NCBI GenBank assembly: GCA_022452145.1
Contig: JAKURY010000019.1
Coordinates: forward strand, 1 to 41,390
From: Acidimicrobiales bacterium
Lineage (GTDB): Bacteria; Actinomycetota; Acidimicrobiia; Acidimicrobiales; MedAcidi-G1
Length of the DNA stretch: 41,390 nucleotides
Reading direction: 5' to 3'
In this document: one piece after another, positions 17,569-25,106 of the stretch
Position numbering within the stretch: the first letter of the stretch is position 1
Layout of the letters: each line of letters begins with the position of its first letter
Position numbers and translations under genes: made by a program
Notes under the pieces: generated by a model
What the model was told of the DNA's origin: nothing
The model's input: the letters and a program-made list of their open reading frames with translations, nothing else
Databases searched by the model: none

Positions 17569-17625
17569 GCGCCGACCCTACTGCGGCACCGCAACAGGGA
17601 CCGCTGGCCAAGTACCGGTGATCGG

Positions 17626-17712
17626 CGGAGGGAGTGGGATTCGAACCCACGGTGACGGTGAAGCCACACACGCGTTCCAGGCGTGCCGAATCGTCCGCTC
17701 TCGCATCCCTCC
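17626..17712 (-). tRNA. tRNA-Ser (anticodon GGA)
   Basis: The acceptor stem GGAGGGA/TCCCTCC closes an 87-base cloverleaf. The anticodon stem CACGC/GCGTG presents the loop CTGGAAC, giving anticodon GGA. The long variable arm is that of a class II serine tRNA, and the T arm reads GTGGG-TTCGAAT-CCCAC. The discriminator is G. A full CCA is not encoded (GCCGAT follows). It lies upstream of dnaX on the same strand. Confidence 0.95.
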
Positions 17713-18504: not shown

Positions 18505-18594
18505 GGAAGGTTGCCAGAGCGGACGAATGGGGCGGCCTCGAAAGCCGTTGTGGCCTCCGGGTCACCGTGGGTTCAAATCCCACACCTTCCGCCA
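18505..18594 (+). tRNA. tRNA-Ser (anticodon CGA)
   Basis: The acceptor GGAAGGT/ACCTTCC encloses a class II cloverleaf with a long variable arm. The anticodon stem GCGGC/GCCGT holds the loop CTCGAAA, giving anticodon CGA. The T arm is GTGGG-TTCAAAT-CCCAC. The discriminator G is followed by an encoded CCA, unlike the GGA isoacceptor 0.8 kb away. Confidence 0.95.
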
Positions 18595-20248: not shown

Positions 20249-21115
20249 TCACCACCCGACCAGGACCGCCCTGCTGGCCTCCACGATGCGGCGGGCCATC
20301 GGGCCCATGCCCAGCGCGGTCAACCCGGTGTTGAATACCTCGGGCGCAACCACCGGATCTGCGGAGATGTCCCGCAACAACCCGAACAGGTGGTCGTGGT
20401 CAACCACGCCCTCGCCGGGCAGGGGGCGGTCGGCCAGGCACTCGGCCATCGGATCATCCCAGGGCTCGGCTCCGGCGTCGCACAACTGGAACACCCGGAT
20501 GGCCTCGCCGGGCATGGAGGCCAGGGTCTCGGCGTGGCGTCCGTACGGGCCACCAGGTTGGCGGTGCCAGTGCCAGGAGTCGAGCAGCACCCCCACGTTC
20601 GGCTGCCCGGTACGCCGAAGGATCTCCCAGCAGGTCGTGATGTCCGGGATTCCGGACCACGGTAAGAACTCCACGCAGATGGCCACGTCGACCTCCGCGG
20701 CCCGATCGGCCACCGCTGCGAGGTTGGCAACCGTCGCCTCCATGGACACGAGCTCGGGCTGTAGTACCACAGCGGCGAGGTTCGGCGACCCGTGGGCCGC
20801 AGCGATGTCGATCGAGTCCAGTGAATCCTCGACGGCCACTGCCGGACTGGTTGCGTTGGCCCAGCCGTAGATGGCTTCGACGCAGGCGACCCGTAGGCCG
20901 GCCGCCGAGAGTCGGGCCCTGATGCCGGCTGAGGTCCATCCCCGCGCCTTCAGGAGGACCTCGTGGAGGGTCCAGAAGGAGATACCGACAGCGCCGGCGG
21001 CAACGGTCGCCTCCACGTACTCCTCGAAGCCGGCTCCGTCCAGGTCGAACGTGTCGGGTAGGAGGGTGCTGGGACAGAGGAACAGGTCGTCTCGCCTACG
21101 GCGCTCAACGGTCAC
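20249..21115 (-). CDS. Sugar phosphate isomerase/epimerase-like TIM-barrel protein
   Basis: A 288-aa protein of the xylose isomerase-like TIM-barrel group (AP endonuclease family 2 fold). Metal-site residues expected in the fold are visible in order: Glu in AICVEFLPWSGIPD, Asp and His in GVLLDSWHWHRQPGG, Gln/Asp in VFQLCDAG and Glu in VVAPEVFN. Such proteins isomerise or epimerise ketoses and inositol derivatives, or open lactone-like rings; the substrate is not predictable. The GTG at 21115 overlaps the TetR stop (GTGA), so the two are translationally coupled and the regulator probably controls or senses this step. Confidence 0.85.
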   Translation of the reverse strand: MTVERRRRDDLFLCPSTLLPDTFDLDGAGFEEYVEATVAAGAVGISFWTLHEVLLKARGWTSAGIRARLSAAGLRVACVEAIYGWANATSPAVAVEDSLDSIDIAAAHGSPNLAAVVLQPELVSMEATVANLAAVADRAAEVDVAICVEFLPWSGIPDITTCWEILRRTGQPNVGVLLDSWHWHRQPGGPYGRHAETLASMPGEAIRVFQLCDAGAEPWDDPMAECLADRPLPGEGVVDHDHLFGLLRDISADPVVAPEVFNTGLTALGMGPMARRIVEASRAVLVGW

Positions 21116-21696
21116 GCCGGGGTTCCCGGCACGAGGGCCGGCTCCAGGCGGGCCAGGAGGGCGGCTACCAGGTGGTCGACTGTGGATTCCGGAGCGGGTT
21201 CCAAGGTCAGACGACCATCCCGCCATAGGGTGGCGAACCCCCAGACGAGGGACAGTTGCAGCCGCGTCCAGTGGACCCTCGCGTCGGCGTCCAGGCCCAT
21301 CATCTCCAGGACAGTCTGGAGCGGGCTGCCGACGCGTTCCACCGCTGCCAGCAGGTCGGGGTCACTACCGGGAGGGTGGATGGCGGCGCTGAAGCGCCCC
21401 GGCCACGCCATGGCGAAGCCCAGGTGGGCCCGGACTACGGCGTCGACGGCGTCGCGACCCGACCGTCCCACGGCTGCTCCGATCACCGCATCGCCCAGGT
21501 CGGCCAGCGACCGGAGGGCCAGGAGCCGACGGAGCCCCTCCACGCCGTCCACGTGGGCGTAGAGCGACTGTGACCTGATGCCCAGTCGGGCCGCCACCAT
21601 CACCGGTCCCACCCCGTCGACGTTTCCGATCTCGTCGAGGACCTCCAGAGCGGCACGGCCCACCTGGTCGGCGGTCACCCCTCGTCGTGCGGCCAT
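21112..21696 (-). CDS. TetR-family transcriptional regulator 1
   Basis: A 194-aa repressor-like protein. The N-terminal helix-turn-helix is VTADQVGRAALEVLDEIGNVDGVGPVMVAARLGIRSQSLYAHVDGVEGLRRLLA, in which SQSLYAHV is the recognition helix. The C-terminal helical domain would bind ligand and dimerise. ATG 21696 is preceded by GGAGGGG. The gene is divergent from the UGSC cassette across a 55-base gap with a perfect palindrome, so it likely represses itself and the cassette. It is coupled to the TIM-barrel gene downstream. The inducer is unknown, but a substrate of the cassette or of the isomerase is the natural candidate. Confidence 0.88.
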   Translation of the reverse strand: MAARRGVTADQVGRAALEVLDEIGNVDGVGPVMVAARLGIRSQSLYAHVDGVEGLRRLLALRSLADLGDAVIGAAVGRSGRDAVDAVVRAHLGFAMAWPGRFSAAIHPPGSDPDLLAAVERVGSPLQTVLEMMGLDADARVHWTRLQLSLVWGFATLWRDGRLTLEPAPESTVDHLVAALLARLEPALVPGTPA

Positions 21697-21721
21697 CACC
21701 CCTCCGTGCGTTCCTTGCAAA

Positions 21722-21736
21722 CCTAGTCGAACTAGG
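21722..21736. promoter_or_regulatory. Palindromic operator between TetR 1 and the UGSC cassette
   Basis: CCTAGT-CGA-ACTAGG is a perfect 6+6 bp inverted repeat in the 55-base divergent gap. A -35-like TTGCAA for the rightward cassette lies immediately upstream (21715-21720), so a bound regulator would cover the -35/-10 spacer. Position and symmetry fit a TetR operator. Confidence 0.65.
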
Positions 21737-21751
21737 GCAGGCTTATGTCTG

Positions 21752-22804
21752 ATGACTGTAGACACTGCTGGCCCCAGAACGGCCCTCCTCGAGGTGGACG
21801 ACGACGCCGACCTGATCGAGGTGCTCTCCTCCCACGGTTGGGGCGACGGCCTGCCGCTGGTCGCCCCCACCCCCGGACGGGTCGAGGCGATGCTCGCAGG
21901 TTGTGCCGGCGCCGACCCCGACGAGGTCATCGCCGTGCTCCCTCCCCGGTTCGGCGAGGCCACCAGGCTGGCCATCGCCGTGAACGCCGTGATGGCCGGC
22001 TGCCTGCCCGACCACCTCCCGGTCCTGGTGTCGGCCGTGCGTGCGCTGGCCCACCCCGAGTTGAACCTCCGTGGCGTAAACGCAACCACCCACTGCGTCG
22101 CCCCTCTGCTCGTCGTCCATGGAGAGGTGGCCCGCAGCGGCGGCTACAACAGCGGCCCGGGTGCCTTCGGACCCGGTAATCGGGCCAATGCCACCACCGG
22201 TCGGGCCCTCCTCCTGGTACTCCTGCACGTGGCCGGTGCCACGCCGGGTGACGGGGACGCCTCGACCCAGGGTGGGCCGGGCAAGTACGGCTTCTGCGTG
22301 GCCGAGAACCTGGATGCCTCACCGTGGGCCGGCTACGCGGCTTCCATCGGCGTGGACGCCCCATCAGCGGTGACCGTCCACTGTGGCGAGGCACCACACA
22401 ACGTGCACGACATGGAGTCGTCGGACCCGGCACGGATCCTGGACAAGGTGGCCTCGGCGATGGCCACCACCGCCCAGAACAACGCCTGTATCAGCCAGGG
22501 CGAGTACGTGGTGGCACTCTGCCCGGAACACGCCGCCACGTGTGCCGAGGCCGGGTGGTCCCGATGCGACGTCGCCTCCTACCTGTTCCAACGGGCCCGG
22601 CTGCCAGCCGGCGAACTACGGGCGGCCTTCGCGCACCGGGCGTGGGCCCCGTGGATGGACCGGCTGGAGGATGATGAGCTTGTCCCCATGACCGGGGAGG
22701 CGGGAAACATCCGGGTGCTGGTCGTCGGGGGACCCGGCAAGCACAGTTCCGTCATACCCAGTTGGGGAATGACCCGGAGCGTCACCCTCCCCGTCGAGGC
22801 CTGA
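21752..22804 (+). CDS. Large partner protein of the UGSC cassette (350 aa, function unknown)
   Basis: A 350-aa cytoplasmic protein whose biochemical function I cannot name. Motifs that look conserved-type include GWGDGLPLVAPT (residues 29-40), a Cys-containing MAGCLPDHLP, LRGVNATTHCVAP (about 107-119), FGPGNRANATTGRALLL (about 139-155), ASTQGGPGKYGFCVAEN and SAVTVHCGEAPHNVHD. The many Gly/Asn/Thr-rich turns suggest an active-site-bearing enzyme domain. I recall similar proteins adjacent to UGSC-motif proteins, but this is memory, not a search. It is the first gene of the cassette, begins at ATG 21752 just after the palindromic operator, and ends 24 bases before the selenoprotein start. Confidence 0.8.
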   Translation: MTVDTAGPRTALLEVDDDADLIEVLSSHGWGDGLPLVAPTPGRVEAMLAGCAGADPDEVIAVLPPRFGEATRLAIAVNAVMAGCLPDHLPVLVSAVRALAHPELNLRGVNATTHCVAPLLVVHGEVARSGGYNSGPGAFGPGNRANATTGRALLLVLLHVAGATPGDGDASTQGGPGKYGFCVAENLDASPWAGYAASIGVDAPSAVTVHCGEAPHNVHDMESSDPARILDKVASAMATTAQNNACISQGEYVVALCPEHAATCAEAGWSRCDVASYLFQRARLPAGELRAAFAHRAWAPWMDRLEDDELVPMTGEAGNIRVLVVGGPGKHSSVIPSWGMTRSVTLPVEA

Positions 22805-22828
22805 ACCCCGAACAGATCGGAGACGACC

Positions 22829-23359
22829 ATGCAGATCATCCGCCCTGACGGATCGGTGGCCACGCCGCCCGCCACCCTCGCCCCATCTCCCCACGTGCTC
22901 TCCGGACGACGTATCGGCATCCTCGACAACCGCAAGCCCAACGCCGATGTGCTCCTCGAACGCCTGGCCGAGCGCCTCGTCGAGCGGACCGGCGCCACCG
23001 TCGTACGCGTCGATACCAAGAACGCCGCCATCCCGTGTGACGACCAGGTCCTGGGCCTACTGGCCGAGGAGGTGGACGTCATCCTCACCGGCACCGCCGA
23101 TTGAGGGAGCTGCACGTCGTGGAGTGTCCACGACACCGTGAAGCTCGAGCAGGCCGGTCGGCCCACCGTTCTGGTGGCCACCGGTGATCTTCGGCAGCTG
23201 GCAGACCAGACCGCTGCAGACCTGGGCCTGGCCGACCTGCGGGTGGTGTCCGTCGAGCACCCCGTCGGCGGCATCGACCCCGACGAGGTCCGAAGGCGGG
23301 CCGACGGCATCGTCGACGAGGTGCTCGGCCTCCTGACCGGAACCGGCGGCGCCCCGTGA
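22829..23359 (+). CDS. UGSC-motif selenoprotein (UGA-encoded selenocysteine at residue 92)
   Basis: Reading through an in-frame TGA at 23102-23104 gives one 176-aa protein. The first 91 residues contain RRIGILDNRKPNADVLLERLAERL and DVILTGTAD. Then come U92-G-S-C95, TSWSVHDTVKLEQAGRPTVLVATG, and a C-terminal half ending DGIVDEVLGLLTGTGGAP. U-G-S-C is the redox UxxC-type motif that names the UGSC selenoprotein family, in which other members have Cys in place of Sec. Three facts support recoding: the frame is intact on both sides, a SECIS-like stem-loop starts two bases after the TGA, and the final stop overlaps the next gene's start (GTGA). Decoding needs selA, selB, selC and selD elsewhere in the genome. 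Confidence 0.9.
23107..23146 (+). promoter_or_regulatory. Bacterial SECIS element
   Basis: The mRNA just after the UGA forms a long stem-loop. GAGCU (23107-23111) pairs with AGCUC (23142-23146). CAC (23113-23115) pairs with GUG (23138-23140). GUCGUGG (23116-23122) pairs with CCACGAC (23128-23134), with apical loop AGUGU. The loop has G as its second base and begins 18 bases after the UGA, matching bacterial SECIS rules (16-37 bases, G in the first two loop positions). Confidence 0.85.
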
Positions 23360-24186
23360 CCATCCAGATCGACCACACCGAACGCACCGCCCTGGTGACC
23401 GGCGCAGGCGCCGGAATCGGTCGGGAGGTCGCCCTCTGGCTGGCCCGGGCCGGTGCGGCAGTTGCCGTCAACGACCTACGGGCCGACAGGGCCGAGGCTG
23501 TGGCGGCCGAGATCGACGGAGAGGGCGGGTCGGCGGTACCGGTGGTCGCGGACTGTCGGGACGACGCCGCCGTCGACGCCATGGTCGCCACGGTCCTGGA
23601 TCGCCTTGGGGGCCTGGACATCGCCGTCAACAACGTCGGGATGCTGCCTCCGGGGCGTAGCCCCCAGCCGTTCGTGCAGGCCCGGGGCGAGGACTGGCGC
23701 GACATCGTCGACCAGAACCTGGTCACGGCGGCCCTGTGCGGCCGGGCCGAGGCCGAGGTGATGGTCGAGGGGGGAGGCGGCTCGATCCTGTTCGTGACGT
23801 CGGGCGAGACCACCCGGCCGGCGCCCTACAACGCTGCCTACGCGGCGGCCAAGGCCGCGGTCAACCACCTGGTGACCACCATGGCCGTGGAGTTGGGACC
23901 GGCCGGCGTCCGGGTCAATGCCATGGCACCGGGCACCACGCTGACCGAGACGGTGGCGGCTGCGTTCACCGAGGAGCGCATGGCTGCAATCGTCGAGGCC
24001 ACCCCGCTGCGACGCATGGTCGAGCACGACGAGTTGGCCCGCCTGGCCGTGTTCCTGACCAGCGACCTGGCCCGGTGCATCACCGGGCAGTTCCTGCTGG
24101 CCGACGCAGGGGCGTTCCTGTCACGCACCCGACCGGCCAACGACGAGGGGCTGACCGTACACCTGGACGGTTCGAACGCCCGCTGA
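23356..24186 (+). CDS. Short-chain dehydrogenase/reductase (UGSC cassette)
   Basis: A 276-aa classical SDR that should oxidise or reduce an alcohol/ketone with NAD(P). The cofactor loop TGAGAGIG is at residues 15-22, NDLRADRAE follows strand 2 (an Asp there favours NAD), and NNVG is in strand 4. The catalytic Ser lies in LFVTSGETT, and Tyr/Lys are in AAYAAAKAAVNHL. The C-terminal part (FLTSDLARCITGQFLLADAGAF) is also standard. The GTG start overlaps the selenoprotein stop by GTGA, so its translation depends on ribosomes that have passed the selenocysteine codon. It converges with a second SDR gene 26 bases away. Confidence 0.92.
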   Translation: MTIQIDHTERTALVTGAGAGIGREVALWLARAGAAVAVNDLRADRAEAVAAEIDGEGGSAVPVVADCRDDAAVDAMVATVLDRLGGLDIAVNNVGMLPPGRSPQPFVQARGEDWRDIVDQNLVTAALCGRAEAEVMVEGGGGSILFVTSGETTRPAPYNAAYAAAKAAVNHLVTTMAVELGPAGVRVNAMAPGTTLTETVAAAFTEERMAAIVEATPLRRMVEHDELARLAVFLTSDLARCITGQFLLADAGAFLSRTRPANDEGLTVHLDGSNAR

Positions 24187-24212
24187 CCCGGTTGGCCGGC
24201 GGACTACCTCCC

Positions 24213-25106
24213 CTACAAGCCGATCCGGTGGTGAGGAGGGACTTCGAAGCGCCCGATGGCATCGGCCCGCTCGTGGAGCAACCCGACGATGTCATCGAGC
24301 TTCCGGCCGATGATGAACTGGCGTCGGGCCGTGCACCCCACGACGAAGCGCCCCAACTCGTCCAGGTCGGCGACCGTGACATCCCGTCCCGCCTTCGCCA
24401 ACAGGTCCTTCATCTCGACGAATGACATGCTCTTGCGGCCGGTACCCCCGCGCACCCGCTCCAGCTCTGTCGGCCGGTTGCGTTGCGAGGTGAACAGCCC
24501 GGTGTCCATCAGCCCCCCGGACGGGTAGAACACCGACGCTCCCATGGCCTCGGACTCGGCCCGGAGCTGGTGGTCCAGCGTCTCGGTCATGCAGCTCACC
24601 GCCGCTTTGCTGGAGGCGTACAGGCCAGCCGACGGCACCGGTGCGAAACCACCGTCACCCGAGGAGGTGTTGACGACGTGCCCCGGCTCGCCGGAAGCCA
24701 GCATGCGGGGAACGAAGGCCATGATCCCGTTTGCGGTTCCGAACACGTTGACGCCGTAGCACCATCTCCAGTCGTTCGGTTCGTGCGTCCAGATCCGACC
24801 TCCTCCTCCCGAACCCACGCCGGCGTTGTTGTAGAGAAGGGTGCAACGCCCGTGCACCGTGAACACCTGGTCGGCCAACGACTCGACCGAGTCGGCGTCG
24901 GAGACGTCGGTGAGTATCCCCGACACCCGTCCCGGAAAGGAGGCCGACAGCACGGCAACCGTCGTGTCCATCACGTCCTGCTCGATGTCGGCGATGACAA
25001 CGGTGGCGTCCGCCTCCAGCAGGGCGCGCACGATGCCCTTCCCGATGCCGTTGGCACCACCGGTCACGACGGCGACCGACCCTGCGACCTCCAGGGGCAC
25101 CGTCAT
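24213..25106 (-). CDS. Short-chain dehydrogenase/reductase (amidohydrolase cluster)
   Basis: A 297-aa SDR. The cofactor motif is VVTGGANGIGKG near residue 13, then IADIEQD (Asp after strand 2, suggesting NAD), YNNAGVG in place of NNAG, and catalytic residues in NTSSGDGGFAP and GLYASSKAAVSCM (YxxxK). The C-terminus is longer than usual, with a helical extension ending FEVPPHHRIGL. Its ATG shares one base with the stop of the amidohydrolase gene (TGATG), so the two are coupled. The three leftward genes (two amidohydrolases, one SDR) look like a catabolic operon. Substrate unknown. Confidence 0.92.
   Translation of the reverse strand: MTVPLEVAGSVAVVTGGANGIGKGIVRALLEADATVVIADIEQDVMDTTVAVLSASFPGRVSGILTDVSDADSVESLADQVFTVHGRCTLLYNNAGVGSGGGGRIWTHEPNDWRWCYGVNVFGTANGIMAFVPRMLASGEPGHVVNTSSGDGGFAPVPSAGLYASSKAAVSCMTETLDHQLRAESEAMGASVFYPSGGLMDTGLFTSQRNRPTELERVRGGTGRKSMSFVEMKDLLAKAGRDVTVADLDELGRFVVGCTARRQFIIGRKLDDIVGLLHERADAIGRFEVPPHHRIGL

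Follow-up and report, generated by a model that had tools for sequence, protein, structure and literature searches.

A UGSC-family selenoprotein gene and its partner gene in an Acidimicrobiales bacterium

The UGSC gene and its operon

The window, by which we mean the whole 41,390-nucleotide stretch of DNA analysed here, is contig 19 of a 2.08-Mb, 46-contig, 95% complete genome, and carries on its forward strand a gene of the UGSC selenoprotein family at 22829-23359. The gene would encode 176 amino acids with selenocysteine (Sec) at residue 92, specified by the TGA at 23102-23104, and ends at the stop codon TGA 23357-23359. Its frame comprises 91 residues before the internal TGA and, as a first-pass annotation of this DNA had stated, continues for 84 codons beyond it (23105-23356); the read-through translation contains the motif D-U-G-S-C-T-S-W-S-V-H-D, with UGSC at residues 92-95, just as that annotation had read it. 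A mechanical list of open reading frames of at least 80 amino acids contains the 91-residue front half, and has no entry in the UGSC frame for the back half.

The proposed identity as a UGSC selenoprotein is supported by family models that cover both halves of the product: Pfam UGSC (PF24696) matches the read-through protein with 166.3 bits against a cut-off of 25 (9e-49) over residues 3-170, spanning the UGA, and NCBIfam UGSC_fam (NF041046) matches it with 141.8 bits against a cut-off of 125, while the same family search gave no match in 14 control genomes. The genome has a second UGSC gene (C21:8668-9168), also with a TGA and likewise matched by one family model across it. By its sequence the window gene is a further member of an already described family, agreeing with it in full-length match, UGSC motif and Sec form, and itself showing no difference from it; Cys homologues occur elsewhere. 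The GOS survey counts 255 Sec and 21 Cys UGSC members (PMC2398784), so the description of UGSC as a known family with Cys homologues is sound. The further claim that the family was first noted in marine metagenome surveys is only in part supported: in passages of that 2008 paper UGSC appears with the families already known, and not with its seven new ones (PMC2398784).

In homologues the two halves line up as a single protein, the downstream half is conserved, and of 155 distinct sites in the alignment 154 have Sec or Cys at the UGA position (126 TGA, 28 Cys codons and one GGC). The proportion of Cys does not reflect how common it is in nature, because 20 stop-free loci were fetched on purpose, and many of the Cys rows are paralogues with other residues. 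Within a 31-row alignment, in which U was written as C, the UGSC/CGSC motif is invariant. Elsewhere, three homologues (L158, L171, L174) have Ser in place of the second motif Cys (UGSS).

Directly upstream of the UGSC gene, on the same strand, lies a gene that we call the partner (21752-22804; 350 amino acids and a TGA stop), the start of which was set where homology begins; a 408-residue reading frame from 21578 that covers it is probably over-long. Downstream is a short-chain dehydrogenase (SDR) gene at 23356-24186, also on the plus strand (PF13561/PF00106), whose GTG start overlaps the UGSC stop in the GTGA of 23356-23359, an overlap that had been correctly noted before. A TetR-type regulator (21112-21697, minus strand, start approximate; PF13305 TetR_C_33, 4.5e-13) is divergent to the operon, and since partner, UGSC and SDR genes form one run beside it, we infer that their expression is probably inducible. 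A search of 21500-24300 against Rfam (E up to 10) gave no family at gathering score. The window also contains two serine tRNA genes, at 17624-17712 (minus) and 18505-18594 (plus), with anticodons GGA and CGA.

The hairpin after the UGA and the selenocysteine machinery

A bacterial SECIS-type hairpin occupies 23107-23146 on the plus strand, its folded stem beginning two bases after the TGA and its AGUGU apical loop (23123-23127) following 18 intervening bases, in agreement with the geometry given by the first-pass annotation. Folding of the RNA downstream of the UGA, which the same annotation had proposed as a check, gave -22.6 kcal/mol and a z-score of -3.05, with 1 of 200 dinucleotide shuffles as good, whereas the RNA at three UGA codons that serve as ordinary stops in this operon (z -0.07, -0.68 and -0.98) folds no better than shuffles. 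Against codon shuffles the mean z-score is -2.07 for 27 Sec forms and -0.78 for four Cys forms; seven of the 27 Sec forms have p above 0.1. In a separate fold test the hairpin of the second UGSC copy reaches only z -0.87. Fold energy alone is thus a poor test for SECIS elements here, and the claim for this hairpin rests on covariation.

Numbered from the U of UGA, pairs 15-33, 18-30 and 21-27 each join two third codon positions, and were counted in 126 Sec and 28 Cys sites, the one GGC site being excluded. Pair 15-33 is standard in 102/126 Sec sites against 13/28 Cys sites, and pair 18-30 in 120/126 against 13/28. The strongest is pair 21-27, formed in 123 of the 126 Sec sites (73 GC, 50 CG) and in 7 of the 28 Cys sites; it is maintained by a codon swap, in which Trp (TGG) typically accompanies Val GTC, and Cys (TGC) typically accompanies Val GTG. 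When one side of this pair was re-dealt in 1000 shuffles, which do not keep kinship, the mean was 64 and the maximum 80, compared with 123 observed. The AGUGU loop is present in 81/126 Sec sites, while 19/126 have fewer than six of the seven pairs in the standard register, many of these being divergent subfamilies. The closest control for loss of the hairpin is provided by L020, L021, L029 and L038, Cys orthologues whose peptide is likewise SCTSWSVHD: pair 21-27 is broken in three of the four, and all four use AGC for the Ser codon where the Sec orthologues use AGT. The hairpin is incomplete in most of the 28 Cys copies, Sec form and hairpin being kept or lost together, and we take it to be under selection as RNA and not merely through the protein.

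Divergent UGSC-like proteins with the motif UGSC-TPAV were seen at three loci (L169 4675-5220, minus strand; L080; L140 178-435), those of L169 and L140 adjoining a divergent partner. In its standard register the hairpin does not hold up at the UGSC-TPAV loci (2-3 of 7 pairs), but a GCCCGC/GCGGGC stem can be seen by eye after the TGA in a shifted register.

That the organism decodes UGA as Sec had been proposed from the window, and the genome contains the complete set of SelA, SelB, SelD and tRNA-Sec. The two outcomes named in advance as fatal to the proposal, a genome lacking tRNA-Sec or SelB and homologues in which the halves never form one aligned protein, are both contradicted. The tRNA-Sec gene (C9:17478-17569) scores 67.5 bits with the Rfam model and has the anticodon TCA according to ARAGORN, by which it was told apart from a serine tRNA that also exceeds the Rfam tRNA-Sec cut-off, at 49.2 bits. 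SelB (C9:3518-4597; 265.7 bits, cut-off 242.25) and SelA (C9:4628-5767; 389 bits, cut-off 267.9) lie on the same contig; SelD (L226; C17:34022-34939, minus strand; 365.2 bits) has one in-frame TGA, so that it is probably a selenoprotein itself.

In the class set of 247 genomes, PF24696 is found in 89, SelA in 168 and tRNA-Sec in 166. All 72 genomes with a listed TGA-UGSC copy have SelA or tRNA-Sec, as do 3 of the 14 with Cys copies only and 102 of the 158 without UGSC; this count rests on about 150 UGSC matches listed, 'Cys only' meaning no TGA copy among these, and leaves out three of the 89 genomes (G117, G154, G196) that have no listed match. On a 153-sequence tree built without the Sec/Cys column, the 28 Cys sequences fall into six clades and require six parsimony changes, against at least 21 in 500 label shuffles, a result that bears on the number of Sec/Cys changes and not on their direction.

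The partner gene, its neighbours and a second locus

The partner protein matches no Pfam or NCBIfam family over cut-off, and comparison with PDB sequences returned no convincing relative. Structure searches with its AlphaFold2 model (pLDDT 85.0) hit cyclic amide hydrolases, class I fumarate hydratase and chorismate mutase; these similarities are weak, with a best Foldseek E of 5e-3 and a highest VIA Z of 6.7, and are not used as evidence. The association with UGSC is close to constant: the partner or a homologue adjoins UGSC, within a 1.5-kb flank, in 30 of 31 class loci including the window, and in the remaining one (L097) the two are separated by about 3.7 kb that includes a GcvT-type gene. 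A partner profile was also scanned against 84,980 species genomes, yielding at least 588 stretches, of which at least 557 were confirmed and 80 kept. Of these 80 loci, 76 also contain a match to the UGSC profile, weak in two cases (43 and 55 bits), and in the other four the partner stands at a contig end. Among the matches listed, locus titles name Acidimicrobiales, Chloroflexi, Rokubacteria and Beta-, Gamma-, Alpha- and Deltaproteobacteria. Within the same 80 of at least 557 loci the order is partner-UGSC in most of those from Acidimicrobiales and UGSC-partner in most betaproteobacterial ones, which indicates that the linkage survives rearrangement. The best explanation of these gene arrangements is that UGSC forms one half of a widespread, uncharacterised two-gene system with the partner. 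The GOS survey names a fusion of UGSC to a domain 'Unknown_1' (PMC2398784), which may be the partner described here. Four metagenome-assembled contigs titled Bordetella parapertussis (L160, L162, L171, L186) share genes of the UGSC system; the titles may be misassignments.

The wider neighbourhoods of UGSC vary between phyla. In 100 loci scanned, an SDR homologue directly follows UGSC in 11 (the window not counted), a TetR homologue is divergent beside the partner in six (L099, L100, L116, L118, L125, L151), and GcvT-type proteins occur in five, in two of which (L097, L117) they are encoded between partner and UGSC. L116 keeps the order of the window, namely TIM barrel and TetR (both on the minus strand), partner, UGSC and SDR, and L119 has a run of GMC oxidoreductase, GcvT, partner, UGSC, SDR and PhyH. 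Proteobacterial loci include a cluster of TctC-type substrate-binding proteins found in 22 loci, one representative of which was checked with Pfam. Judged by gene content, these neighbourhoods look like catabolism of small organic compounds.

The partner beside the second UGSC gene carries, as an N-terminal fusion, a thioredoxin-like domain with a CPAC motif, the Pfam TraF match of which is weak, at threshold. This fusion has an in-frame TGA of its own (L019 3111-3113, equivalent to G000:C21:10278-10280, minus strand) in the linker motif PG-U-GS. Of 64 genomes with a match to the fused domain, all five that represent the family of the source bacterium in the sample have the TGA; 57 other strong matches have no stop, and three weak matches with a TGA were set aside as distant (one each in G225 and G127, and a second one in G048; 31-35% identity, E 1e-9 to 2e-7). 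The 25 Cys forms of the fusion that were read have RPGCGS or RPGCAS. The five genomes share an 8-bp hairpin with the loop CGGGC, which begins at nucleotide 16 after the U and in which T-A is exchanged for C-G between genera; taken alone, its energy is not unusual (z -0.32). The fusion is probably a second selenoprotein of the system, and it would appear that in the fused partner of this sister complex Sec (PG-U-GS) has taken the place of a conserved Cys (PG-C-GS).

In passages from the UGSC and selenoprotein literature (PMC2398784, PMC13188914, PMC9312934, PMC5029168, PMC12013277) we found no report of the partner pairing, the resemblance to GrdB treated below or the PGUGS site. The linkage to the partner, the likeness to GrdB/PrdB together with a predicted non-thioredoxin fold, and the second-locus UGA go further than the known family. 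Where UGA is read only as a stop, annotation would truncate the window gene and probably the second-locus partner gene too.

Fold, resemblance to GrdB/PrdB and possible chemistry

The AlphaFold2 model of UGSC (pLDDT 91.3) comprises five strand-helix units in the predicted order E-H-E-H-E(Sec)-H-E-H-E-H, with Sec after strand 3, and can be described, as a prediction only, as a Rossmann-like domain. Structure comparison with this model returned mainly SDRs, response regulators and other alpha/beta proteins, the best being 8s7v_H (VIA Z 11.7, 132 residues, 3.2 A), and no functional reading is drawn from these matches; a search of PDB sequences gave nothing below E 0.15. A Trx-like fold was suggested for UGSC in the GOS paper (PMC2398784). 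The predicted fold does not look like thioredoxin: UGSC shares the UxxC pair with thioredoxin-like UxxC selenoproteins, and the sister-group partner is fused to a CxxC thioredoxin-like domain, but the predicted order of strands and helices appears to differ.

In sequence, the resemblance is to GrdB and PrdB. GrdB, GrdF and GrdH are selenoprotein B of glycine, sarcosine and betaine reductase, respectively, and PrdB belongs to D-proline reductase; these proteins need a pyruvoyl subunit (GrdE/PrdA type) to work with and use a selenol to cleave a C-X bond in amino-acid-fermenting anaerobes. With E allowed up to 1, the model TIGR01917 (glycine reductase selenoprotein B) picks up 29 of 31 UGSC proteins (best 1.9e-4) and that of GrdF 25 (best 8.3e-5), with GrdB-type matches confined to the Sec region; some unrelated families reach similar E in a few members, among them PRK08931 (7/31, best 5.5e-4) and PRK08246 (3/31, best 0.0011). 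In a profile alignment of UGSC by hhalign with three Sec-containing GrdB C-termini, 89 columns long, the Sec columns coincide (probability 66.6; E 5.4e-5 for the pair). UGSC shares with GrdB/GrdF/GrdH and PrdB the Sec followed by G-[ST]-x-T, a downstream E-x3-GIP and an HP motif, but at 176 amino acids it is without most of GrdB and scores below every family cut-off, the window protein reaching 11.4, 14.1 and 12.8 bits against the cut-offs of 602.2, 800 and 300 for TIGR01917, NF040794 and TIGR04483. Lying below the cut-offs and without the other GrdB/PrdB parts, UGSC is not classed as a member of that group; the indications that its Sec region is homologous to that of GrdB/PrdB are weak but consistent. 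The partner is a further difference, showing no relation by profile to GrdE-like proteins, and its candidacy as a GrdE-type subunit was not supported (probability 0.1 against three such proteins).

Taking the evidence together, we are fairly confident that the best explanation of the locus is a UGSC-family selenoprotein with hairpin-guided Sec92, acting in a two-gene system with the upstream partner. Insertion of Sec at residue 92 is near certain by inference: SelB and Sec-tRNA-Sec, guided by the hairpin, would insert Sec there instead of stopping. For the chemistry, we tentatively favour selenol attack on a substrate carbon, which we put at somewhat under an even chance. UGSC would be the catalytic subunit of a complex with the partner, which would bind and activate an organic acid or amine substrate; Sec92, placed after the third strand, would attack carbon, with cleavage of a C-N, C-O or C-S bond, as in glycine and proline reductase selenoprotein B though without a GrdE-type subunit. 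Cys95 of the UxxC pair might then resolve the intermediate, to be reduced in turn by a thioredoxin, and the SDR and other neighbours might process the product.

UxxC is equally usual in thiol oxidoreductases, which counts against attack on carbon, and UGSC could instead be a selenol/thiol oxidoreductase whose U-x-x-C pair cycles between selenenylsulfide and reduced states in the service of the partner protein, a real possibility that we hold to be about as likely as attack on carbon. Such a role would fit the invariance of CGSC/UGSC in the 31-row alignment and the N-terminal CxxC thioredoxin-like domain of the second-locus partner, which makes redox cycling probably a part of the system. It sits less well with the predicted five strand-helix units and the position of Sec after strand 3, with structure matches drawn largely from SDRs, response regulators and other alpha/beta proteins, and with a sequence likeness that is to GrdB/PrdB. 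We nonetheless prefer attack on carbon, since it accounts in addition for the likeness to GrdB and for a second protein that is nearly always present.

A reading of the UGA as a plain stop codon or a mistake of assembly, leaving two small genes or a broken one, is extremely improbable: its only support is the mechanical reading-frame list, which ends the gene at 23104, and it must contend with 126 distinct sites that have TGA at this codon, a second gene of the genome that has it too, the conserved downstream half, the covariation of the hairpin and the co-occurrence with Sec machinery. Some bacteria do reassign UGA, but a genome-wide reassignment, or reading as Trp, Gly or Cys, is just as improbable, as the partner, UGSC and SDR genes all end in TGA, so that UGA is still a stop, Cys occupies 28 of the 29 non-TGA sites, and a tRNA-Sec with anticodon TCA is present.

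Should selenol attack on carbon apply, UGSC and its partner might be a two-subunit selenoenzyme, widespread and so far unrecognised, through which selenol chemistry of the GrdB/PrdB type would reach beyond anaerobes that ferment amino acids, without a GrdE-type subunit; in the bacterial family of this genome its sister complex would have Sec in both subunits. We regard this wider proposal as speculative and less likely than not. Function is made testable by the near-constant partner, the GrdB likeness, the recurring SDR, GcvT-type and carrier neighbours, and the Sec and Cys forms that match the state of the hairpin.

Separately, GRDB-type genes (PF07355) at L113, L114 and L115, in 3 of 119 class genomes, continue through an in-frame TGA into UGT[SG]TR; the 347-position PF07355 match ends at the TGA codon, so that each gene looks complete though it continues.
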